Assembly: GCA_003999685.1 (NCBI GenBank)
Contig: CP021222.1
Span: 1,116,001-1,180,000 of the forward strand
Origin: Taiwanofungus camphoratus
Taxonomy: Eukaryota > Basidiomycota > Agaricomycetes > Polyporales > Taiwanofungaceae
DNA: 64,000 nt
Reading direction: 5' to 3'
Part shown: positions 17,440-34,182 of the stretch, in pieces
How the letters are laid out: each line of letters opens with the position of its first letter
Position numbering within the stretch: position 1 is the stretch's first letter
The notes under the pieces: model-generated
What the model saw: the letters and a program-made list of their open reading frames with translations, nothing else
Database searches by the model: none
What the model was told of the DNA's origin: nothing
Program-made: the position numbers and the translations under genes

Positions 17440-20400
17440 ATGTCCAAGTTCACCCCTTCTCCTGCGGAGGTCGCCCTCGTCAACCAGATTTTTGCGCAAG
17501 CCGACACTCAAAAGCTTGGTGTCATCACCGGCGAAGCCGCAGTCAAGATATTCAGCGGGTCCAAGCTCTCGCCAGCGGTGCTCGCAGAAATATGGAACCT
17601 TGCGGACGATGAAAACAATGGCGTGTTGACCCGCAAGGGTGTTGCTGTTGCCGTCCGTTTACTCGGACATGCACAGAGAGGCGAAAATGTCACAGAGGCG
17701 CTGGTGAATAAGCGTGAGTGCTCTACCAAATGCGCACGTCTTACTCGTCTAAATCGCATTTCGAAGCGGGCCCGATACCCACCATTGAAGGCCTCACACC
17801 CCCACTTCTCCAACAAACTACTGGCGCTCCTTCCACAAAGTCTCCACCTCCTGGCTTTCCCCCACTCACACCTCAAGACAAGGCTAAGTTTACGAAGTTG
17901 TTTATAGGATGCGGTCCGATTAACGGAATACTCAATGGTAGGTGGATTGGTGTGTGCATTTGAGATGCAAATTTTGAGCCTACCCGCCTTAGGCGAGAAG
18001 GCACGAGATGTCTTCGTCAAGTCCAAATTGCCAGTGGAGAAGCTGTCGCAGATATGGTATACGTCATTATTATGGCTGTTGTATTGATGTGCTCAGTTAT
18101 TGGATGTAACAGGAATCTCGCTGATACCAAAAACCGCGGGGCTCTAGACGCGGCGGATTTCACGATCGCCATGTACTTAATTCAAGCGTCAATGTCCGGA
18201 CAGCTCAGGACGCTCCCGTTGACCCTCCCTCCGGGGCTGTACGAACAAGCAGGTGGAAGGTCGCCCTTCGATGCTGTCGTCTCTCACGCAACTGGCGGGA
18301 GCGGTTCGTTCAGCCCGTCAATGTCCGGTTCGTTCTCTGGGCGCCCTATGAGCACACTTGAGCCACAGTTCACTGGCGCAAGCTCGGTGTTCCATCCGCA
18401 GATGACTGGACAGCTGAGATCGGCGCCGAGTGCTCCACCTTTACCTGCTCGCTCGGTTCTGGCCAATCCGTCATCAACTTTCCCATTCGCGCAGCCACAA
18501 ACAACGCAACAGTGGGATGTCACGCCTTCTGAGAAAGCGAATGCAGATCGCATTTTCGATGAGCTTGACAAGCAGAAGCGAGGTTTCATCGAGGGCGACG
18601 TTGCTGTCCCGTTTATGCTCAAGTCCCAGTTACCAGAAGATGTCCTTGCTCAGGTTTGGTACGCCTATATTCGACATTCCACAACTATGAACGGTTGGGA
18701 ATTGAACCTTGATATCTCGCTAGGGATCTGTCCGATTTGAATAACGATGGTCGCCTCACTCGCGATGGTTTTGCAGTCGCCATGCACCTTATCCAGGCTA
18801 AGCTTGGTGGGAAGGACATCCCAACGTCGCTTCCACCAACACTGGTACCTCTCTCAATGCGTACGCCGACGGCTGTCCCGGCTGTATTTACTCAGCCTTC
18901 CGTCCCAGATTCGATCCGGGATTTGATATGGGACGACACTCCTCCAGCTTCTGCCACAGTTTCGCAGCCAGTCTTGCAGCCTCAGGCTACTGGAACATTG
19001 TCGCCGAGGCAGACTCCTATGGCTTCACCACCTCCTCAGCGGTCTCAGACAATGCCTCCGCTCCCGCAGGATCCTTTTGGCAGCTCTCCCTTCAGTGTTC
19101 CTGCTGGTTAGTGATTTAGTTTCAACATGTCCACATTTCGCATAGACATCTGATGTGACTTTGGTCTTCGCAGCTCCTGTGCATAAGGATTTGCTTGGAG
19201 ATGACGATGAGCCGGTGGCGACATCTTCGCCTCCTCTCCAAGACCAATCTGCTGAGATTGGCAATGTGAAGATCCAGCTTAACTCAACCAATCAGTCGCT
19301 GGAGACTACCAAGAACGACCGCGCAAATGTCGAACGCGCTTTGTCAGAACAGGCGGCACAGCTCTCGGCGCTGCAGACCCAACTGTCTTCTGCAAAGGCT
19401 GCTTACGAGACCGAGACGCGGCTGTTGAACACCCTCCGCGAGCGATACGCCTCGCAGACTGCTGAGCTCCAGAAGGCACGTGAAGAACTCATCCGTGGCG
19501 AGAGCGATCTGAGCGCCGTCCGCGTCGAAAAGGCCGAGATTGAGGGTTCGGTCTTGCGCGATAAGGAAGACGTGCGCGAATTGCAACGTAAGATGCGGGA
19601 GGTTGGTGCACAGGTAGAGATGCTTAAGGCAGAGGTAGAGAAGGCCAAGAAGGATGCCAAACAGCAAAAAGGCCTGCTCGCGATCTCACGGAAGCAATTG
19701 GCTACGCGCGAGGCAGAACGCGCAAAGGTTGAGAAGGAGCTCGAGGAGGCAAGGACGGAAGCTGAACAAGCTGCCAGAGAGCGCGAGGCGGCCGAGGCTG
19801 AGCTCGCCAAAGAGACCCCTGTTTCATTGGGAAACGGGCACGATCTGACTGGTGCCTCCTCACCCGAGATCCTGGCTGCAGCTATCGCACAACCCCTACC
19901 ATCTACTCCGGACCTTTCCAGTCCGACTGGATCTATTATGAGTCTCACGAAGAGCACAAACCCGTTCGAGAGAGTGGCTATGGGCTCCGGACCCGGCTCT
20001 CGTGCCCAATCTCCTTTCCTGCCCTTCGCGAATTCAGCGGTCCTTCCCACTCCCACCACTTCCGCCGAAGCGCCTGTAGAACGTCGTGCAGCTACTCCGG
20101 CAGCCGCCAATCCTTTCCGTTTCTCTCAGGTATTCAATACAGATGAAACTCCTATTGTCCCCGAGACACCTACGGAGGCCGCAAATCCAGCTCCTCCTGA
20201 AACGGCCGCGACAGAGCAACCTGTTGCTGCACCTTCGCAACTTGCTAACGGTGACGCGGATTTCATGCCCCCAACCGACACGGAGTTCTTCCACACGCCT
20301 ATGAGCTCAGCGACTCCTGCTCCCGCGCAGAGCTCTGCACCACAAGCGTCTCTTGATCCAACTTTCTCACATTCTGCCGTGGATGCTGCAGTCGTTGAAC

Positions 20401-21866
20401 CGCCCATACAGGTACCGTCGCACCAGCAGGAACAAGGTCGTAGTGAGCAGCAGACAGATCTCGGCCATCAACTCAAGGAACTCGAAGAAGGCGAGTCTGA
20501 CACAGACACGGAATCCGAGGACGATGAACCTCTCGCTACAGTCAAGGCCAAACTCAGTCATGAATTCACGGATACCAACACTAATGGCACAGCATCGACG
20601 GCGACTGCGGTGCCAGCCATGTCAGCTTTCGATGATTCATTTCGTGTCACTTCAACACCGGAACCTGTTTCAGCTACCTTCTCGGTCTCGGAGACTTCGG
20701 CTTCTAGGCCGGATGAATCCGTTATAGTAAGCTCTCAGCCTCTAGCGAATGAGGTATTCGGTGCTCCTTTCGTACCCCCGAGTGCGTCACAAGAACCTTC
20801 CACATCTGCTTCTACCGCCGCTGTAGATGTGACACCGAGAGCGAGCGGCAACGTGGAAGAAGCTGGTGTCAATGATTTCGATGAAGCCATGGGTAAGATA
20901 TCTGCGAGCGCTAGCCCCAGCAATGGCCCTTCATCACAGTTTTCCCAATTTACTTTCGATTCTGCCTTTGACGACAACTTCGATTTCGCTGCGGCGAGTG
21001 CGGCATCAAATTCGCCCCCTGTGTCTAATGGAGTCCCACATACGGTTACAACTTCTGTCGCAGCTGCGTCTCCAAAGGATGACTTTGATAGCATTTTCAT
21101 GACTCAGCCTGGTAGTAGTGCAGCCGTGACTGTACCTGCACCTGTACCTTCGGCACCATCGGGTTCTTTTGAACAGCCCCCGCTTCAACAAGCGAAGCCC
21201 TTCTCATTCGATGATGCTTTTGGCTCTGGTACTAGTGAGAACCATCTCTCTTCGAGCCAATCTGGCCCACGGAATGGTGTTCACGGGATCTCATTCGACG
21301 ACGCGTTTGGGGGACATGCCTCTGATACTCTCGCGTTGGACTCCTCTTTTATATCCGTATCTCGGCCTTCAGCTGGTGTTACTCCTGCGCAAACCAAGGG
21401 TGTGGCACCATTCCCTCCGTTGTCTCCCACTAGAAGTGAGTCTCCTCAGCTGACTGCGCGACGGTCCACTTCACCTGCGCGCCAAATATTCCCGCCTCCG
21501 CGTCATTCCTCACCGAAACCGCGACCTTCTACAAGTTCGTCGGACAAAGAGAAGGCGCCTACTACTAGGCATTCTAAATTGAGCGTAAGTGATGATGTTG
21601 TAATTCTGACCGGGCGTTAGAAATGCGATGTTGGTTATTAGATCCGCTTGCCCTTCGGAAGGAAGAAGAAAACACATGACGCTCCGCCCATGCCTCCCCC
21701 CTTGGCCACACAACAGCTGTTAGAAGAGCCCACACCTGCTGTCGACGACGATATTGAGGCGGTCAAGCAACTTTGTGGTATGGGCTTTAGCAGAACTCAG
21801 GCAGTCACTGCCCTTGAAATGCACGGATATGACTTCCAAAGGGCACTTAATAGTTTACTCGGTTAG
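17440..21866 (+). CDS. EDE1: EDE1/Eps15-like endocytic scaffold (3 EH domains, coiled coil, UBA)
   Basis: Ede1/Eps15 proteins start clathrin-mediated endocytosis at the plasma membrane, binding NPF-motif adaptors through EH domains and ubiquitin through a C-terminal UBA. EH1 starts at [20 protein letters not shown]2 follows [17 protein letters not shown] and includes [15 protein letters not shown] and [15 protein letters not shown]3 has [17 protein letters not shown] and [17 protein letters not shown]. The largest exon (19155-21620) encodes a long coiled coil rich in Glu, Lys and Ala, then a low-complexity Ser/Thr/Pro/Ala region with repeated FDDAFG- and FDSAFD-like motifs. The last exon encodes FGRKKK and a UBA domain ([20 protein letters not shown]). 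Domain order and length match Ede1. A diverged relative lies about 6 kb downstream in inverse orientation. Confidence 0.94.
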
Positions 21867-22559: not shown

Positions 22560-23958
22560 ATGGCGACTTTCGATATGGTTGTCCTGGGCTGTGGTGAGTG
22601 TCTATGACTATCGGATAGAACGTGCCTGAGACTCAGCACAGGAGGGGGACCCAATGAACATAATTTATCTTGGTACGATTCTTCCCCATCTATGATAATG
22701 TTGTACATACAGGCCAATATTTTCGACAGCTATCTATTCAAGCTTCGCAATGCATCCTGGAATGACGGGATCTTCGCTCTTGAGGCAGGCATGGAAATTC
22801 AATTGTATTCTGACTTTGTACGATCCATTCTCACGAAGTAGACAGGGTCTGGTATTGGCGCACTCAGCCGCCTTCTACATCGTCAGCCTGATCTCTTTGG
22901 TCATCGTCCTGTTGATGACGACAGAAATCCACAATGTTCAGCGGTCGAAATATATTCATGGATCCGGTATGTCTCGGCTCCTGTCAAGTGTTTGGCTTTC
23001 TTCGTCTGATCCAATACATTGCACTGTGCAGATGCTTTCTGATCACTCATTCCCACTTGGACCATGTCAACAGTTTGGTACTATCAGCAGGTTCTTTGAG
23101 TGGTTCGAGTCGGCATGTATTTGGGGCCTCTCGTACTCTGAAAGACCTGGAGGGTATCTTTTCTGATCGCATATGGCCGAAGCTTGCATCGTGGAATGAA
23201 GATGACTCTCTTCCTCTAATTTTCAGCCCGTAAGTCATGCATGAAATCGCATCACGATAATGTTTATAATATCTACTACCAGACTATCTCCGGATCGGCA
23301 ATACAAGTCGATATCTCGTGGTGTATCCGTTCGCATGATGCCTATCAATCACGGCCAGAACGATACCATTGGTCTCTACGAGTCCTCAGCCTTTTTCATC
23401 AGGCACGACCTCACCGCATGTGAATTTCTATTTTTCGGCGACGTTGAACCAGACAGCATCGCAGCAAAGCCGTTAAACCTCAATGTCTGGCGCGTAGCAG
23501 CGCCCAAGATTCCGCAGAATCTCTCGACAATCTTCATCGAATGTTCGTTTCCATCCGGAAGGAAAGATGACATGCTGTTTGGTCATCTCAGCCCTGAGCA
23601 CTTGGCAGTGGAGCTCACCGCTCTGGCAGCTGAAGTTGTAGACTACAAAAGGCATGCGGCGGATGCAGAATCACAGGGAAGGGATGGTTCCACTCGTGCC
23701 CGGAAGAAGCAAAGGCGAGATCAAGTGTCGTCTTTTCGGGGGGCACTTAATGGCGTCCGTGTTTATATCATTCATTGCAAAGATGACATTCACGGCCATT
23801 ACGACCGTCCGATCAATCACGTCATTGCTGACGAAGTAAGAGCGCTGGTGGATGCACAGGAACTTGGAGTACAGATCATTGCCGTTGACCAAGGGATGCA
23901 AATAGGTGCGCAAGTTATGATCATCAGTTCAACTATGATTTCTGATCAAGGTCTGTAG
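22560..23958 (+). CDS. PDE1: Class II (low-affinity) 3',5'-cyclic-nucleotide phosphodiesterase
   Basis: The enzyme hydrolyses cAMP to AMP and so damps PKA signalling. The start at 22560 gives MATFDMVVLGCGGGP, the usual opening strand and glycine turn, across a short intron. Spliced exons follow with ANIFDSYLFKLRNASW and GSGIGALSRLLHR. The metal-binding signature of the metallo-beta-lactamase-like fold is THSHLDHVN, near 23040-23070, followed by SLVLSAGSL, which is typical of class II PDEs. Later parts include FFGDVEPDS and FIECSFPSGRKDDMLFGHLS, both conserved in the family, and a Lys-rich insertion. The C-terminus could end at 23958 directly, or a last mini-intron could change the final residues. 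The class is certain; the exact end is not. Confidence 0.9.
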
Positions 23959-24263: not shown

Positions 24264-27216
24264 TTATGACGAAGCATACAATTTAACGACGCCGTCGGCG
24301 CCTGCACTGGCCATGATTGGTAACGTAGGGTGGAACTCAACATCGAGCACACCCTCGCGAGCCTTTTCTCGATGGCTGGTGATCTCCTGGACACATGCCC
24401 TCGAGCCAAGGATGTCCCAGAACCGCACGGAGCAGTCATGGCTACCAGACACAAGCGCGAACCCTGCTGCATCCACTGAGAGCGACGTCACACCATCAAG
24501 GTGCGCTAGCATTGAATGTGTGCATTGCCCTGCAGATGGGTGAATTAATACATGCACTGACGCCGCTGATTTTCCGTGTACTCACCTGTCACAATATCGA
24601 AAATGCGGATGTGTTTGTCCTCGTGTGCTGTTATAAGGAGCGGCATGGTCGGGTGTGACACGATGCTATTTGCCTGCGATGGCGGCACATCGTCTGCATT
24701 ACCCATGATTAGAAAATGCTGCATACTCCCTAATTCCATACATACCCTCGCCGGGTGAGCTCTGCAGTTGCGCCAACTCCTTTCCATTTTCAATGTCGAA
24801 AATCTTGATCACAGCATTCTGATACGCCACAGCGACCTTTCTGAGATCGGTCTTGATAGCTTCCACAGCTGTGGCGCCCGGAACGTCGCCCTCGACGTGC
24901 AAATCGGCTGGGGCATCCAAGCCGTCATACGACCAGGTCAACTTCAGTGAGCCTCCACCGGAAGGACCACTAACGTCCCATACTTTGACGGCACCCTCTG
25001 CCCCGCAACTGATCAATGTGCTCTCATCACGAGCAAGAGCTAGATCCCATACGGCATCAGTATGGCCAATGAGCTCCCCCCTTGCGCGTGTGGCATCATA
25101 CGGCGCATAGGTCGTGTGCGAGGAAGGGGGTAGTGCCCATATCCGGATAGAGGAGTCCAGCGAGGCGGAATATAACAGCTGCTTTGACGGTGCGTGAACA
25201 AGTCGTGTGATCGCAGCGGAATGCCCACGAAGTGTCAGTTGTGGTTCGACTTCCGTGGTCGGGCGTGAGCTGTGGGCAACACTGGATCAGCGTCCGACGA
25301 TCGCGTTTCCTTATAGGTTACGCACGCAGAGGAGGCAAGGCCGGTGACATCAACCCGCCAGATCTTTACGGTAGTGTCATCTCCCCCGGTCGCCAGGCAT
25401 AGCTCCGTGGGATGGAACGCAAGAGCTCGTACAGCGTCGAGATGACTGAAGTGGATGTCAGCTTTGTGTCCATACCAGGCCGTCCGGAAGCGAAACTAAT
25501 CAAAAACTAACTTCCGTAGTGTTCTCTTTGCTTTCCAGACCTTCGCACCGTCTCCTTCCCCGATCACGCTTGAATCCTCATCTTCAACTTCGGCATCCTC
25601 CTCCTTGCCGTCCTCGTCATCCTCCCGGTTGCGCCGCTCCCATGACGCGGCACCGCTGATAGAAGGACCTGACTGGCCCGTCGCTTCATGTCCTACCCTC
25701 TCCAGGAATTCATGAGACATTCGCATCTTGTCCTGCATGTTCGCGTCCTCCGGTCGGAAGATCGCGGTGAGCTGATGCGGCTCCGTCTCACCCTCTTTCT
25801 CCTTGTTTTCCGCTTGTTGTGAAGCGGGTTGCAGCTGTTGCGCCTGCTGCTGTTGTTGCATTTGCTGGCTTTGCGGACCGGAAGGACCCTGTGAGTGCTG
25901 CTGTGAGGGCAGCGACACAGAACCGGTGAAATTGCCACGATCTAGCGGGTTGACCTGTGGGCCAGTCGCTGCAGGGGCGGATGATGGACTAGTCATCATT
26001 CCTATGCCGTTCAGCATCGAGAGATCCTTTCCGACCTCGGGCATGACCTTTCGAGGGCGACCGTTGAAGGCCATCTGGTCGAACGCGGGCACGTTGGGAA
26101 GATTTGGAAGTTGAAGGGGTAAGGTCGTGTTATTTAACAGCGGGCGATTGGGAAGGGGATTCATGGCTTGGGCAGAAGTCAAGTACGAAACTTCCTGGAG
26201 ACATCTGATGGGACGGTCGCAACGCGAGCAAGATGTATGTTGAATGTGTAGTTACGCACTGTTTCAGGTAGTCCCTACTTCGCGCTCTGCTCTTTGGGTC
26301 GCGACCAGGAGGAGGTTTCCCAAGTGGGCCCATTGTACCTGCAGACGGTCCGTTCGGTATGGACCATGTCACGCTCGCACTACCCCACGTTTGGGGTTTT
26401 GGTGCATTACCCAGCAAAACACCATTGGTTGAGCCCGTGGACATACGATCAGGAGGTAGGGGGGAATCTGATAAGAAGCCCTTATGAAAAAGATATAAAT
26501 TTGTTCAAAACAGAAGATGCACCTTCACTGCGCGGCGAACTGCCGCTACTTCCATCGTCCTTCTGAGATGACTGACCCATCTGGGACTGCAACGTCGCAA
26601 GTTTCGCAGGTGGTACTGGCTGCGGGGCAGACTGCGCCAGTTGCTTTGACCTGCAGAAAGACACGTCAAAGGTCGAGTGCAAGCGAAAGACGATCCACAT
26701 ACCGCTCTACACGGAGCGCGTATTCCAGCATCTTGATACGCCGCATAAGGTCGAGCTTGACATTGTCAAATGACCGGCGCTCGCCCTCGAGCAGAGCTAT
26801 TCGTGCCTTGTGAAATGAACATAGTTGAGAGACACGTACGATTTACGGAATACATTGCTCCTCACCCGCATTTCAGCACGCTCGATCTCCCATTCATTAC
26901 GGTCGCGTTCGTATCTGCGCCATTCTGTCTGGAGGAAGTGTAAGACGTTGGAAAGGGTGAAGTCCTGGCCGCTCTGTGGTGGAATGGGAATTTCGGACTG
27001 CTGGGGCCCTTGTTGTTGTTGCGGTGCTTGAGGCGGCTGCTGCGGCTGCTGCTGCTGCTGTTGCTGCTGCTGTTGCTGTTGCTGCTGGTTTTGTATGGGT
27101 TTGTTCGGATTGGGAGGCACTCCCAGCGGGCCTAACATGGGGAGCTGGATGATAGACTGGAGGTGCTGGTTTTGTGGAGAAGGCTTCGAGGTGATTCTTG
27201 AAGCCGCGTTGATCAT
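24264..27216 (-). CDS. PRO11: Striatin homologue (Pro11/Far8 type), STRIPAK scaffold
   Basis: Striatin is the regulatory B''' scaffold of the STRIPAK phosphatase-kinase complex, which in fungi controls hyphal fusion and fruiting-body formation. Near the N-terminus, after a Pro/Gln-rich stretch, come [18 protein letters not shown] and [17 protein letters not shown], then [19 protein letters not shown] and [15 protein letters not shown]. Together these are the striatin coiled coil. A disordered middle follows with [13 protein letters not shown], acidic runs and Ser/Pro-rich parts. The C-terminal half is a WD40 propeller, with repeats containing [30 protein letters not shown] and VVKLYAS at the end. 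The start ATG at 27216 gives [16 protein letters not shown]; a second in-frame ATG-like codon lies seven codons upstream. Many short introns interrupt the gene. Confidence 0.92.
27033..27088 (-). repeat. CAG/CAA polyglutamine tract in the striatin gene
   Basis: A run of CAG and CAA codons with rare CCG interruptions encodes about 15 glutamines, followed by Pro/Gln-rich sequence. The mixed codons make it less prone to slippage than pure CAG. It sits just before the striatin coiled coil. Confidence 0.85.
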
Positions 27217-27764
27217 CCTATAACCTGTTTGGTACAAACAACCTGCTGTTCTCGTTCCCTCACTTGCTCTCAGCTGCCAGCCTGCTCGTTGTCGCTGTCG
27301 TTGACCGTAGCAGGATATTGGAGAGTGCGACGGTCAAGTTGCTGCAGAATACTGACTGCAATAGAAATTACTCTTCTCGCTAACTTCCACTGCCTCGTTT
27401 TCCCAAATCTCGATTTACGTAACCTAGCCCCGCCCATGAAAGGGGCCTTGAACATATCGCTACGACCTCAGCGCATGAAACTAATTTCCGGTCCAGGTGC
27501 TAGTACAGGTAAGTATTAGCCCAGGATCGTCGCCAGCTCAGCAGGGGATGCTCACTCGCAGCGACTTCAACAAGTTGATGGTCGAAGTACATTCGCATGC
27601 GTGTCTCCACTATTACGGTTTACTCCGTTACTTGTGGTTCATTGGCTTCAATCGCAGCTAGCTATGTTACAGAATTCTGAAACGCCATACAGAATATGTA
27701 TCCAATACAAGCAGAGCTTGAAAAGTCCGCCATCGACAAGATGCCTTCTTCCCCTGGAGTGATG
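27217..27764. other. Intergenic region, no gene seen
   Basis: Between the striatin start and the stop of the second EH gene, both on the minus strand. A 96-codon plus-strand frame here has no motif and no typical start context. No repeat or RNA gene is visible. Confidence 0.45.
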
Positions 27765-29598
27765 TCAGGATCTCTCGCCAGATATACTTTCATAAGGAGG
27801 CGGTGGTGTATCCGCCCGTGGTACAGTCTCCACCATCTCTGTAAAGCTCGGCGGAGGGGTCGAATCAACTGTGAATCTAGCGTTACCTTCAATCGCTGTG
27901 TTTGGTCGGGCAGGGGACGTGTTTATCGACTGTGCGATCATTCCTGGTGGTAGCGAACTCGGCAGCTCCTTCCCTCGCAGTTTCTCTCTGACCAGGTGCA
28001 TAGCCACTGCGAACTCGTGGCGCGCAAGCCGACCATCATGGTTCATGTCGGCGACGTCCCTGTTTTAAGTAGCATAGAGCGTTCAGTGGAGTTTTTAGTC
28101 AAAGATGTAGAAAGCTAGTAAAGGAGCAAGCTTTAATGGTGCATCATTATACGCACCAAATCGCCGCCATTACCCCGTCGGGCAGCCTCGACTTCGCGAG
28201 GAAGGTTATCGCGACGTCGCCTTCAATGTACCCTGTCTTCCGCGGATCTAGCGTATCAAATAAAGCATCGGACTGGGTTTTCTCCACAGGGTCGATGTCC
28301 CACGATGGCGTCGCGGCAGGCACCCCTTGTCCCCGCTGTATAGTAAAGGACTCTGACACTAGCGGAGAGGCGGGTGGAGTCTGGAAAGGGGAAATGTCAT
28401 GCGAAGGCCCTGCCAATGGTTGGCGCGATGACTTGGTGTTGAGAGTCATGAATGAATTCTGGCTGCTAGAGGGTTCGCCCACCGGACTTGTACCCCCTGG
28501 CCTGGGAGGAATCGCGGGAGTAGATGACATTTCAACAGGTTCATCAAGGTCAATGAGCTGGGTTTGAAGATGTTGGGAAAGAGGAGGGAACACATAGGAT
28601 ATGTGGCAACATACCGATCCTTCTGAAGTTAGATTAATTGGGTGCTCTCGCGTAGATGGAACTGGAGATGCGGGTAGTGATACTGGCAGTTCTTTCCCGG
28701 TGTTCTTCATATCTATGAGATTCATAGCCGCCGCAAACTCCTCGCGCGTCAGATAGCCCTTCTGACCCGTGTCCACAAGAGCCCTGTGAGATAGGATTAA
28801 GAACAGTGTAGCTCCGGTATGCAAACGGTCTCATTACGTATTCCCAAAGTGATGCGCACCAAATTCGTGTTAGAACGTCCACAGGCATCCCAAGCTGAAG
28901 CATGAACGGAGCTACGACTTCTCCTAGAGCGCGACCAGTTCCCTGTGGGTCAAGAATATCGAATGCGCGATCTGCACCACCAATTGCGTCCGGAAGGCTG
29001 TGCGGAGCTACTAATCCCGCACCAAGGTGTGATGACGACCGAGGGACTGAAGAACCTGAGGGGCGCATACCGATGATTGGTGCCGAAAGGCCGGGAGCAA
29101 GTGCGACTCCAGCTTGCTCGTAGAGTAAGGGTGGAAGAGAAGGTGGTACAGTGGTAAGTTGTCCAGACATACAAGATTGAACAAGATACATGGCAATGGT
29201 AAACTCTGCTACGTCAAGAACACCACGACGTTGCATATCCGACAAGTCCCTGAAAAGCACCGATAAGTCAGTCACGTTCATGGGTATTGTCGATATAGAC
29301 AGATGTACCATATTTGGGAGAGCGTTCCTGGTGGTAGCTTCGACTTGAGCAGTAAGTCTCGGGCTTGCAGTCCTGGCCACCGAAGTATCAGAAGACGCCG
29401 GCATCAGACATCGCCCCAGGACCCACCACTGAGAACGTCATTCTGAGGAGAAGATGAAAAGAAGATCTTCGCGAACTTGGCTTTATCCTGGGAGGTAAGT
29501 GGAGGAAATCCTCTCAGGCTTTGCTCAGACACTGCTCTGGACGAACCGCCCTCGTTCGGTACTACAACACTCGCTATGTTCGAATGTTTAAATATCAT
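27765..29598 (-). CDS. EH-domain protein, diverged relative of EDE1 (possibly 3' half of a larger gene)
   Basis: Three EH domains and little else. The first EH is preceded by RGFPPLTSQDKAKFAKIFF, almost the same as the linker in the EDE1 homologue. It continues in GLQARDLLLKSKLPPGTLS and DVAEFTIAMYLVQSCMSGQL. The second has DPQGTGRALGEVVAPFMLQ and KGYLTREEFAAAMNLIDM. The third has TGYIEGDVAITFLAKSRLP and NHDGRLARHEFAVAMHLV. An intron interrupts the SQIW motif at the same place as in EDE1. The protein then stops after PPPPYESIS. It lacks EDE1's EH1, coiled coil and UBA. The start at 29598 (MIFKHSN) is weak. Splice sites just upstream could instead join this gene to the GAT-repeat gene. An endocytic role is likely. 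Confidence 0.82.
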
Positions 29599-29710
29599 CG
29601 GATCACGGAGCACAACAAAGATACCCACGACATTGCTCAGTCAAGTCTCCCCGAGTTGACTTGTCCTGCACAGATCAAATCGCTCTATAAGCAACTTTTC
29701 GGCCTAGGTA

Positions 29711-31336
29711 TCAAACCTCACGCACTGTGTTTTGAGCCTGAATTCTCTTGCGCTCAAGTACATCAGTTCCAGCCCGTCCAAGCTCATGATACATCTTCAG
29801 AGCTTCCACCAGCTCCTCGTTCGCTCCGAGGAGCGACTCGACCAGTCTTTCCTCCGTGGTCAACGCGGGCGTACGGGCAGCACGGCGGGACCTTTCAGCT
29901 TCTGCAGTTGCCCACGGAATCTTGGCCAAAATCTCTTCTTGCGATGCGCGACAGCTCGAGCAAAATTCCTAAACATAACGTTACAATCTGGACAATAATA
30001 CGACGTTTCAGTGTATGCACACCTGGACGAGCTCTCCTTGGAGATCCTCCGGCTTCGCATTCATTAGCGCCTCATGCAACAATTCGGCATTCCCCCAAGC
30101 TGTCTGACAGATGGAAAACAAACGTTGTACATCGCCATCCTGACCTGGTGAGGAATCGGTAGATTGACGCGATCCATTGGGTGGTGGGCTACCGGCCAAT
30201 GCCTGAATCTATGTACACATAAATCCAGTATTTAAAATCAAAGACTTCACAGAATACGTATCACCGCACCGTGCGCTCGTTCTTGATGAGCTGTTGCGCT
30301 TGTGTATCATATCTGGCACGCTCCAGGTCGTCGTACATTTTCAAGACATCCGTGAGTGCATCGTCAGTCGTCAAGAGATCTCTAAGCAACTGCTCCTCCT
30401 TAGTCGGAGCTGTGCTCTGAGAGAGACGGCGGGATTTGGCGGCTTCGATATCTGCCCATGCAATGTGATCTGAAATCTCCTCCTGCGTTTCTCGACAACG
30501 GGAGCGGAACTCCTGCATACATCGGACATTGCGGCACCATGCGACTCAGAGTAGTAGCAGAAGGCAAGTGCTCAAGGCATACCTGTATCAGTGCCCCCTG
30601 GAGTTCCTCAGGTTCTGCGTGAATAAGTGCTTCATATAGCAATTCAGCATTACCCCGTCCAGTCTTAGAGACCTGGAGCAATCGCCGAACTTCATCATCA
30701 TTAGGGGGTGCATCGCTAGGGGGTGTTGAACTTGGCGGATGCCGATCGCCCAGAGACAGAGCACCAAAGACGAAACCTGAGGCCAACGATCGAATCTATA
30801 CGAGCGTGGTCGTGGAATCGGTCCCGTTCACAAGATCCAACATTTACGCACTGTATGCTGATTCTTGATGCGCTCCTGTGCGTGTGCATCAGGCCCGGCC
30901 CGTATCAAATCATCGTACAACCGCAGAACTGCCGTCAACTCTTGATTAGCTCTCGATAGCTCTTGCAGCAATTGCTCAGCTTCGGTCGGTGCAGGGTTAC
31001 GAACACCACGTCGTGATCTTCTTGCCTCGGCAGATGCCCCTGGAAGCTGCGACGTGATGTGTTCTTGCGACCTGCGACACTTCAAGAGAAATTCCTTGCA
31101 CCGATATCCAGTATGACGGATCAAAGTCACTGCGCGATACTCTCAAAGTAACTCACCTGTATCAACTCCCCTGTGAGGTCCCTCGGCTCTGCATTAAGGA
31201 GCGCATCGTGAAGAAGAGTCGCATTGCCTCGTGCGGTCCTGCCCAAGTTAGACAAACGCTGCCTCCCGCCCGATGGAGTCGTGGGATTCGGAAAGCCCGT
31301 CATCTGGCTGGGGGTAGGCCTCCTCGAATGGCGCAT
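29711..31336 (-). CDS. Protein of three tandem GAT-like modules
   Basis: GAT domains are three-helix bundles found in GGA, TOM1 and Lsb5 adaptors, where they bind Arf, ubiquitin or other sorting partners. Here the module is repeated three times and no VHS domain precedes it. Each copy begins with a gly-asn-ala motif (ARGNATLLHDALLNAEP; GRGNAELLYEALIHAEP; AWGNAELLHEALMNAKP). An intron follows after LIQ, LIQ or LVQ. The second exon holds EFxxxCRxxQExI, a Ser/Arg-rich linker and helix-forming sequence such as LRLYDDLIRAG or LKMYDDLERAR. The exons join in frame: QHT to IRSLASG and ERT to IQALAG. The start at 31336 gives MRHSRRPTPSQ. If the last possible splice is ignored, the frame stops at 29711 after NTVREV. 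If it is used, the frame continues into the EH gene. Confidence 0.78.
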
Positions 31337-32384
31337 GGCGGGTGAAGCGAATAATATGGAACAAAGAAGTACTCGAGACTGACAATCAGGCGTAAACCGG
31401 ACACCTCATTTGTTCAGAATACGAGATCTGCTCCCAATAAGTGAAACAGAAGCTGTCCTGGGTGGAGAGGCTGCGCACAAAGTGGACCATTGTGGCAAGA
31501 CACAGCATCTCGCGGCACCACACGCCCCGCAGTACTCGAGTCGGTTCACGATTGAGTCGTGCCGAAAAATGATTTACTATCTTCGTCGACTTGACCGATG
31601 CCGGAACTCAGTACGAGTGGCCCGCCTCGAAAAGTAGGACTAGGTATCGTGCAACTACAATATTTAAATAATCTTACCTAGGTACAATGCGAGACGCAGA
31701 CCAAGTCCACTGAGAATTTCACTCTGTTCTCTGCTCACGCACATCAGGTCATCAAGTTCTGGGAGTAGAACTTTCACGCTCGGACCATTGCAAGGCCCTT
31801 GATACGGCCGTCAGTACAGCTTCGGAATGATGATCATGATCTTTCCGAGCATCCTACAATTTGTTTGCACGACATGAACGACAAGCAGCACATTCATTCG
31901 ATGACTCGGAAACGTGCCAGCACGTTGATATCGAGTGGGAGCTGTCGTATAAACAGATTGTACCATCTATTTTCGGCCGACAAAAGGAATGCCTTGAAAG
32001 GATTTGTCGCTTGGTTGCAGCAACAGCTTCCTAAGGTCTTGGATGTGAGAAACGGTGATGATCTATTCAAACGACGACAAAATGATTGTCGAGTGAATGG
32101 CCGGGCTATCCACGAGAACACTTCAGGAGAGGGAGCAGGTACCTCGTGCCATAGCTAGCTCGTACGCCGTGGGATCGGAGTTGTTGGAAGTTGATCGCAA
32201 GTAGAGGCGTCCGCGACTTATACTTTTTCCATTGATCAACGTCCATCTTCCCTTTTGCTTGCATTGCATTGTCGTTTGCTCACCTTATCCTCTACCGTCC
32301 ACCATTATTTCAATCTAACGAGTGCTTTTCACGATCGGCTATTGTATCTGTTACGGCGTCACTCTTCCAGCACTGCCAGGCATC
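31337..32384. other. Long divergent intergenic region, no gene seen
   Basis: About 1 kb between the start codons of the GAT-repeat gene (-) and the Pin4-like gene (+). ORFs of 60-119 codons occur on both strands but show no motif. The last 150 bases before 32385 are pyrimidine-rich, as expected for a transcribed leader. Confidence 0.45.
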
Positions 32385-34182
32385 ATGACCAGCTCTTCTT
32401 CCACTCCGGATATTTCCACCTTGTCGCTCACTTCCCAGCCCTCTCAGCAACGTCTTCATGATACTTACGATTACGAAGGCAACGGAGGCGGCAACGGTAG
32501 AAGTCCATACCACTATTCTACGTCTCCTCCTATCCCCGCTCAGTCACAGTATAATCCGCTTGGTATGAATCAGTCACCCCTCAAGAATAAGGCGGTACGC
32601 GGAGGACTCCCTACTGTGCGGTTTCATGCGTGGTTTTTTTTTGTATTTAATATGAATACTAACATGGTCCGCTGGTTGCCAGCAATGGCTTGATAATACA
32701 GCTAACATGGCGGATAACCGTTCTCTTTCTCCGCCTAATAACTCGGATTTGTCCTCGTCGGGAGGCTCTCCACCGCCCATAGGCCACATGCATGCTCCTC
32801 CCATCACACCCAGCACACCCAACCAAGGCATTGATGACGAGATCATACCCACAGCCATCGTCATCAAGAACATTCCATTCAACGTAAAACGCGAGACACT
32901 TCTAGATATCATTGTACGTGGCTAACAGTTCTTCTGATCTTTATTGAGTATATAATTTTGAACTCGATCTAGGCATCGCTGTCGATCCCCACGCCGTACG
33001 CATTTAACTATCACCTGGACCAATCCGGCCAATTCCGTGGCCTGGCGTTTGCCAACTTCCGCCAGGCCGTTGATGCGGACGCTGTCGTTGCAGCTCTCAA
33101 TGGATTTGATGTTCAAGGCCGCAAGCTGCGCGTCGAGTACAAGAAAGTTTTACAAGCTGGTGAAAAGGAGCGTATTGAAAGGGAAAAAGCCATCAGGCGC
33201 ATGAGGTCCATGCAGCTTGAAAAAGAGCATGCCGCCATGGCCCACCAACAGCAGACTCCGTACGACGAATTCGGGCCCATCGTCTCCCCTCCGTTCTCTC
33301 CTCAGCGTTCTTTCTCAGGATCTAGCGTGTACCAGCAGCCGTTCTCACCCTCGCAGTTACCGCCGATGCCGACTCCACAGCCATATACCGTTACGACACC
33401 TCCCTTGCCGTCAGTGACACCGAGCGTCCTGAAGTCGCCATCGAATGAGCTCGATCTCAATGATCCGTCTACGCTCGAGATCTACTCCCGAATACTGCTG
33501 TTCAAGGATGATCATATGCGAGATGAGCTCGCTTTCTCTAGGACTCTTACGCCGAAGCAGAGAAGAGTCGTACATCTTGTCGCCCAGAAGTTGGGAGTAT
33601 TTCACTACTCTGTTGGCGAAGGAGATGAACGATATGCTGTTGTTACGCGTATTGATCCTAATGCAGTATGTTTCTCTCGTGCAAGTGCGCAAGGTAGTGC
33701 TGATTGATTTTCGTCAGCAACAGGGTCCGGGACCGCGGCAGACATTGACGCGCGCTCCTTCGTCCTACTTATTGCCAACGTCGCCGCAAGCACCCAACTC
33801 CTTGCGTGTGAAGAAGTCTATGCCAGACATGAAGACCCTGCAAGCGCAGACTCCTCGTCTGACTACCCGCGCCTCAAACGGCAATATACGCGAAGGCTAC
33901 GCTACGATTGCGTCTCCTTCCCGCCGTTCTCCTGGCGGCTTCGCATCGCTGTTCGGTAACGGCGGTGCATTCGGCAACGGCATACCCCCTGTGCCCAGTC
34001 TCCCGTCCAGCGTCACTGGAATTGTCAATGGCGGAGGCGGAGGCGGGATGGACAGCTCCAACGGGGTTGTAAGGCAGCCTCGCGGACCCGGCGCTGGCGG
34101 CTTTGAATCTAGAAGGGAAAGACGCGAGAGCCAGTCCCGAAGTGGTTTCGAGGCTCGTTCTCACGAGCCGTTGGAGATCTAA
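32385..34182 (+). CDS. PIN4: RRM and R3H domain RNA-binding protein, Pin4/Cip1 type
   Basis: Relatives (budding yeast Pin4/Mdt1, fission yeast Cip1 and Cip2) bind mRNA and act in stress and DNA-damage responses. Exon 1 encodes a Ser/Thr/Gln-rich start (MTSSSSTPDISTLSL). It splices to QWLDNTANMADNRSLSP. The RRM has IVIKNIPFNVKRETLLDII (RNP2 side) and GQFRGLAFANFR (RNP1 side), interrupted by an intron at the DII/ASLS junction. A charged helix follows (EKERIEREKAIRRMRSMQ). The R3H domain is at DPSTLEIYSRILLF to GEGDERYAVVTR. The C-terminal third is Ser/Gly/Arg-rich and disordered, ending EPLEI. The ATG at 32385 is the only one giving the Ser/Thr-rich start without a hydrophobic leader. Confidence 0.9.

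Follow-up and report, generated by a model that had tools for sequence, protein, structure and literature searches.

In known adaptor proteins of the GAT type, one GAT domain is placed behind a VHS domain. An earlier reading of the window, the 64,000-nucleotide stretch of DNA analyzed here (C3:1116001-1180000, judged by its genes to be fungal), had proposed that three strongly diverged GAT-like modules, built by triplication of an exon pair, stand in a row on one strand without any VHS domain. The locus raises the question of whether such an array is a protein in its own right or part of a larger one, and from which genes its parts were derived. Our analysis suggests that the array probably opens a single chimeric gene on the minus strand (31336-27765), with the coding potential for a spliced endocytic or endosomal adaptor in which three GAT domains are followed by three EH domains.

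Gene model

The genome searched comprises 33.2 Mb in 15 contigs. Gene models were drawn by eye from the sequence and its relatives, and the GT-AG borders were also chosen by eye and provide no independent evidence. The model of the GAT-EH gene contains 13 exons (Table 1), which can be read without a stop codon into 936 amino acids and are separated by introns of 54-97 nt. The order of the encoded features is three GAT domains, three EH domains, and a PPxY motif, and all of the GAT and EH domains pass their Pfam cut-offs. The 57-nt intron before exon 12 (intron 11, 28614-28558) can also be read in frame, which extends the model to 955 amino acids.

Table 1. Features of the GAT-EH gene model and its probable source genes (window positions except for the VHS-GAT gene)
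Feature	Position	Strand	Description
Exon 1	31157-31336	-	Start codon, then first half of GAT module 1, 180 nt; Pfam GAT 35.5 bits
Exon 2	30852-31094	-	Second half of GAT module 1, 243 nt
Exon 3	30583-30795	-	First half of GAT module 2, 213 nt; Pfam GAT 41.9 bits
Exon 4	30270-30512	-	Second half of GAT module 2, 243 nt
Exon 5	30023-30208	-	First half of GAT module 3, 186 nt; Pfam GAT 44.7 bits
Exon 6	29726-29968	-	Second half of GAT module 3, 243 nt; downstream donor GTGCGT
Exon 7	29629-29665	-	Putative 37-nt exon bridging the two parts, entered in phase 0 and left in phase 1
Intron 7	29574-29628	-	Weak link of the model; stop and next ATG inside if retained
Exon 8	29573-29427	-	With exon 9, linker and first part of EH a
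Exon 9	29372-29309	-	With exon 8, linker and first part of EH a (EH2-like)
Exon 10	28860-29249	-	Remainder of EH a, linker, beginning of EH b
Exon 11	28615-28783	-	Remainder of EH b
Exon 12	28157-28557	-	Linker, then beginning of EH c
Exon 13	27765-28059	-	Remainder of EH c, brief C-terminal tail including PPPY (residue 925), and stop codon
Ede1-type gene	17440-21866	+	1357-aa model, 7 exons; probable source of the EH part
VHS-GAT gene	L020 5766-2666, contig C12	-	784-aa model, 11 exons

Three GAT modules with a shared exon structure

The three tandem modules were confirmed as members of the GAT family, since each of them on its own exceeds the 31-bit cut-off of the Pfam GAT model (PF03127), and the joined three-module protein contains three separate Pfam GAT stretches. 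The repeated unit also has the structure that had been read from the sequence, with two exons separated by an intron after LIQ or LVQ. The introns within and between the modules are all in phase 0 (exons 31336 to 29726), and the second exons (exons 2, 4, and 6) are identical in length. The pairwise identities between the modules are 45-52%, and for every pair none of 500 shuffled sequences scored as well. These values bear out the strong divergence of the copies.

A profile based on four GAT domains, the three modules and the GAT of a VHS-GAT gene on contig C12 that is described below, was searched against solved structures, with ten sequences reported up to an E-value of 1. It matched the GAT domain of TOM1 (1wrd, E 1.1e-4) and that of GGA1 (1naf, E 8.4e-4), the latter with a long gap in the alignment. 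Module 3 as a single-sequence query reached TOM1 weakly (E 0.004-0.03). Judged by the almost equal profile matches, the modules may be as close to TOM1 as to GGA.

The start codon of module 1 (31336-31325, minus strand) aligns with the beginning of the first exon in each of modules 2 and 3, where M-R in the first module corresponds to I-R and I-Q in the other two. It looks as if the start of module 1 has arisen at an old acceptor site.

Origin of the GAT exon pair

To learn more about the origin of the modules, we searched the genome with the three-module protein. Nine matches were obtained among the ten candidates scored; five represented the gene itself, three were located in one gene on contig C12, and one was a weak match on C8 (E 0.997). 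The C12 gene, which encodes a VHS domain (56.2 bits) and a GAT domain (35.6 bits, with the best stretch covering profile positions 2-40 of 77), is the only other clear GAT match in the genome among these candidates. We refrain from calling it TOM1 because the fungal GAT proteins treated in PMC3473312 are grouped there with GGA.

The GAT domain encoded by the C12 gene is interrupted by an intron at the equivalent site, at an IIR/EF junction that corresponds to LIQ/EF and LVQ/EF in the modules. This internal intron is in phase 0, as are the introns on both flanks of the exon pair, and such a symmetric pair could be copied and inserted elsewhere without breaking the reading frame. Module 3 is most similar to the C12 GAT (65/108 identical residues), followed by module 2 (61/129) and module 1 (53/119). 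The second exon of the C12 GAT is 339 nt long, and most of its extra length is explained by a 28-residue insertion that is absent from all three modules. Since the intron site and the phase-0 flanks are common to the C12 GAT and the modules, we suggest that a symmetric exon pair like that of the C12 gene was probably copied and triplicated, leaving out the VHS domain, and that the C12 gene is the likely source. The proposed triplication of an exon pair is thus supported by the phase-0 flanks, the equal second exons, and the intron shared with the C12 GAT. A tree of the GAT domains inferred for the order of the duplications gave support values of only 0.11-0.30.

No VHS domain was detected in the 936-aa model at an E-value of 0.1. 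A tblastn search of the window with the VHS domain of the C12 gene gave no hit with an E-value under 0.5, and the region that precedes the GAT-EH gene yielded just 13 amino acids at E 1.2, so the array lacks a VHS domain in the model and upstream of it, as had been claimed. Other VHS matches in the genome are located at four places (C9, C5, and two on C1). The four-GAT profile was also run against the open reading frames of seven loci (L009, L013, L020, L021, L022, L024, and L025; except for L020, about 1.5 kb on each side of the match), among which the C12 gene alone gave a match above the inclusion threshold; the next best hit, in L025, scored 7.7 bits (E 0.13). A distant GAT domain of the GGA type near the other VHS genes could escape such a scan. 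The Pfam GAT model gave no match in the whole genome, probably because the domain is split by an intron and was searched exon by exon; the control genomes gave no match either.

EH domains related to a neighboring Ede1-type gene

The end of the array is where the sequence-only reading needs revision. While the three GAT modules stand, the end placed at 29711 falls within an apparent donor site, and the same strand continues past the third GAT into three EH domains, to which Pfam EH (PF12763) aligns in three stretches (187 bits in total against a cut-off of 22). Matches to these domains were found at three places in the genome among ten candidates scored, namely the GAT-EH gene itself, C3:274454, and an Ede1-type gene on the plus strand at a distance of about 6 kb. 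The protein model of the latter contains three EH domains within residues 1-479, a UBA domain within its last 74 residues, and an NPF motif at each of positions 742 and 792; it lacks a PPxY motif.

EH a is most similar to EH2 of the Ede1-type protein (61/96 identical residues), while EH b and EH c both correspond to EH3 (41/86 and 51/93, respectively). The intron phases inside the domains are also equal, being 1 and 2 in EH a and EH2, and 2 in EH b, EH c, and EH3, and one internal EH exon is 64 nt long in both genes. By sequence and intron phase, the three EH domains are diverged relatives of EH2 and EH3 in the neighboring gene, which is the probable source of this part; with respect to that gene, they are inverted partial relatives. 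The translation contains the pocket Tryptophan in all three domains, as QIW in EH a, RIW in EH b, and AIW in EH c. In EH domains, this residue serves the binding of NPF motifs.

The junction between the GAT and EH parts

Whether the two parts are translated as one protein depends on the junction between them. Splice profiles were trained on 21 introns outside the gene that were set by eye (6 from the Ede1-type gene, 10 from the C12 gene, and 5 from a neighboring WD-repeat-type gene), and scores were ranked against all GT and AG sites on the minus strand of 27000-32000. The third GAT ends with ACA followed by the donor given in Table 1; the end of module 1 has the same GTGCGT, and that of module 2 has GTGCGG. 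The donor of intron 6 scores 7.7 and its acceptor, 60 nt further on, 7.0, both at the 99th percentile, and transcripts would therefore be expected to extend beyond the third GAT and to reach the vicinity of the EH reading frame. Exon 7 combines an acceptor of 7.0 (99th percentile) with a donor of 5.3 (92nd percentile).

The fusion model is weakest at intron 7, the acceptor of which has a poor score of 0.7 that corresponds to the 47th percentile of the regional AG sites, as compared to 2.3 for the lowest acceptor in the training set. Other in-frame starts of the next exon are located at 29561, 29534, and 29531, the best of which is 29531 (2.6), so that four in-frame splice routes, with total scores of 20.7 to 22.6, lead from the GAT to the EH part. 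When the gap was shuffled, retaining its first six bases and dinucleotide content and allowing donors from 5.0, acceptors from 0.5, and introns of 45-140 nt, an in-frame bridge of any kind was obtained in 105 of 400 cases. Under the stricter limit, a total of 20.0 or more, the number was 37 of 400, and for this reason the bridge is just modest evidence of a fusion.

If intron 7 is retained, the GAT frame ends at a TGA codon (29605-29603) and an ATG codon at 29598 opens the EH frame, only 4 nt away. The parts could then be translated as two proteins from one RNA, either bicistronic or with a retained intron. The location of both the stop and the new start inside the intron, as well as the weak acceptor, fit such an arrangement, and a widespread occurrence of polycistronic RNAs has been described for mushroom-forming fungi (PMC4503453, PMC11590231). 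However, the mean distances between the open reading frames of bicistronic RNAs given for these fungi are 364 nt (PMC4503453) and 434 bp (PMC11590231). Against these averages a spacing of 4 nt is extreme, which argues for the fusion, and the two parts can moreover be joined by the four in-frame splice routes. We consider two proteins from one RNA to be rather unlikely.

A more radical separation, into two independent tandem genes that have promoters and terminators of their own, is consistent with the possible ATG codon of the EH frame and with the separate relatives of the GAT and EH parts. Yet the space from the end of exon 6 to the EH start codon is only 127 nt and includes the strong intron 6, whereas the next gene on the same strand begins about 550 nt past the EH stop codon (ATG at ~27216, by eye). 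Two independent genes are accordingly very unlikely. We favor the single chimeric gene, and a single splice junction, that of intron 7, decides between one protein and two.

Two candidate homologies at the junction were rejected. Exon 7 resembles exon 1 of the Ede1-type gene no more than expected for a chance match, with 198 of 2000 protein shuffles and 1428 of 2000 DNA shuffles scoring as well. Likewise, the similarity between the start of exon 8 and the start of Ede1 exon 2 was not significant, given that equally good scores came from 3280 of 20000 anchored shuffles, 781 of 3000 global shuffles, and 1345 of 3000 DNA shuffles, and also from 268 of 569 sampled AG sites.

Selection and age of the copies

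Comparison of the three GAT copies with each other gave a pN of 0.31-0.33 and a pS of 0.65-0.82; for the modules against the C12 GAT, the values were 0.25-0.35 and 0.78-0.89. The EH domains show the same pattern in comparison to the Ede1-type gene, with a pN of 0.23 and a pS of 0.90 for EH a and EH2, and 0.27 and 0.74 for EH c and EH3. Since the synonymous sites are near saturation, the copies are old, and the proteins were maintained under selection for much of that time. As estimated from these substitutions, the GAT copies inside the gene show protein-level constraint. A recent loss of function would also be compatible with the pN and pS values.

A decaying relic of an ancient duplication could account for the low scores of the acceptors of introns 7, 11, and 1 (0.7, 1.3, and 2.0), all of which are below the 2.3 of the lowest among the 21 training acceptors, and for EH b being the least constrained part (pN 0.37, pS 0.78 against Ede1 EH3). 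However, the 13 exons of the model contain neither stop codons nor frameshifts, and pN is well below pS between the copies within the gene. That the gene is a pseudogene is thus highly improbable.

Putative ubiquitin binding and a model for the proposed hybrid protein

GAT domains are ubiquitin binders, and in the GGA proteins Arf is bound by the N-terminal part of the GAT domain. The first ubiquitin site in the GAT of GGA3 is described as L227, M231, E246, L247, and E250 (PMC7721868). In a register inferred from the residue spacing, modules 1, 2, and 3 retain 4/5, 3/5, and 4/5 of these residues; the M231 position is occupied by Alanine in every module as well as in the C12 GAT, and E246 is replaced by Alanine in module 2. 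In the C12 GAT, E250 is the only one of the five residues that is identical in this register. The count therefore lends weak support to ubiquitin binding, given the changes at M231 and E246 and the fact that the C12 domain keeps E250 alone. Because most residues of the site are kept in the inferred register, ubiquitin is the more plausible of the two partners, ubiquitin and Arf, that the earlier reading had suggested for the array.

In the proposed protein, ubiquitin on cargo or on the adaptors of cargo would be bound by the three GAT bundles, whose weak tandem sites would together provide avidity. The EH domains would hold coat proteins with NPF motifs, and the C-terminal PPPY motif could dock a ligase of the Rsp5/Nedd4 type. 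All three binding activities are predictions. The triple GAT would replace the C-terminal UBA domain of Ede1, and a GAT-EH protein without the central region of Ede1 would enter Ede1 assemblies instead of nucleating them. It would connect cargo that carries ubiquitin with partners of the EH domains, among which might be Ede1 itself. The complete scenario would be an exon-shuffled hybrid in which a tripled GAT has taken the place of the Ede1 UBA and intron 7 acts as a switch, so that splicing gives one protein that couples ubiquitin to NPF-bearing coats, and retention gives two, by which cargo is uncoupled from the coat. This full scenario is speculative, and we regard it as improbable in its entirety.

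Comparison with known adaptors

The predicted GAT-EH protein can be compared to two types of known systems. TOM1 and the plant TOL proteins have a VHS-GAT architecture (PMC13386808). With the VHS-GAT adaptors (TOM1, GGA, Lsb5, and the C12 gene), the GAT-EH gene shares the Pfam GAT domain and, as regards the C12 gene, the phase-0 GAT intron and the similarity of module 3 to the C12 GAT, but it differs in having three GATs rather than one, no VHS domain, and EH domains behind the array; unlike the C12 gene, it also lacks the insertion in the second GAT exon.

Yeast Ede1 is described as having three N-terminal EH domains that bind NPF motifs of adaptors, a central PQ-rich and coiled-coil region that condenses, and a C-terminal ubiquitin-binding domain, the UBA (PMC9064294). 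The similarity to Ede1/Eps15 consists in EH domains that, among those compared, are nearest to Ede1 EH2 and EH3 and have equal intron phases, and in the predicted pairing of EH with a ubiquitin-binding type of domain. In contrast to Ede1/Eps15, the model lacks EH1, has EH3 in duplicate, and carries the three GATs in front, with the EH domains in the C-terminal half; it ends 60-odd residues past EH c, with neither a long central region nor a UBA domain. By its domains, the protein is a member of both the GAT family and the EH family, while its predicted architecture fits neither the VHS-GAT adaptors nor Ede1. No tandem GATs or GAT-EH proteins were recognized among the matches listed in a limited search of the open-licence literature.

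If the model is correct, the combination of a tripled GAT with EH domains of the Ede1 type would represent a natural test of how valency determines ubiquitin recognition. It would also provide a clear case of symmetric phase-0 exon shuffling between trafficking genes in a fungus.

Neighboring genes

A gene for a class-II cAMP phosphodiesterase is located beside the Ede1-type gene (~22560-23940, plus strand), as identified from a 208-aa piece that matches Pfam PDEase_II with 104 bits. A striatin-like gene (~27216-24500, minus strand), named by reading alone, has a Q-rich N-terminus and a C-terminus that resembles WD repeats. On the other side, a divergently oriented gene begins at ~32377 on the plus strand, at a distance of about 1 kb from the start codon of module 1, and contains RRM and R3H domains (32973-33707).
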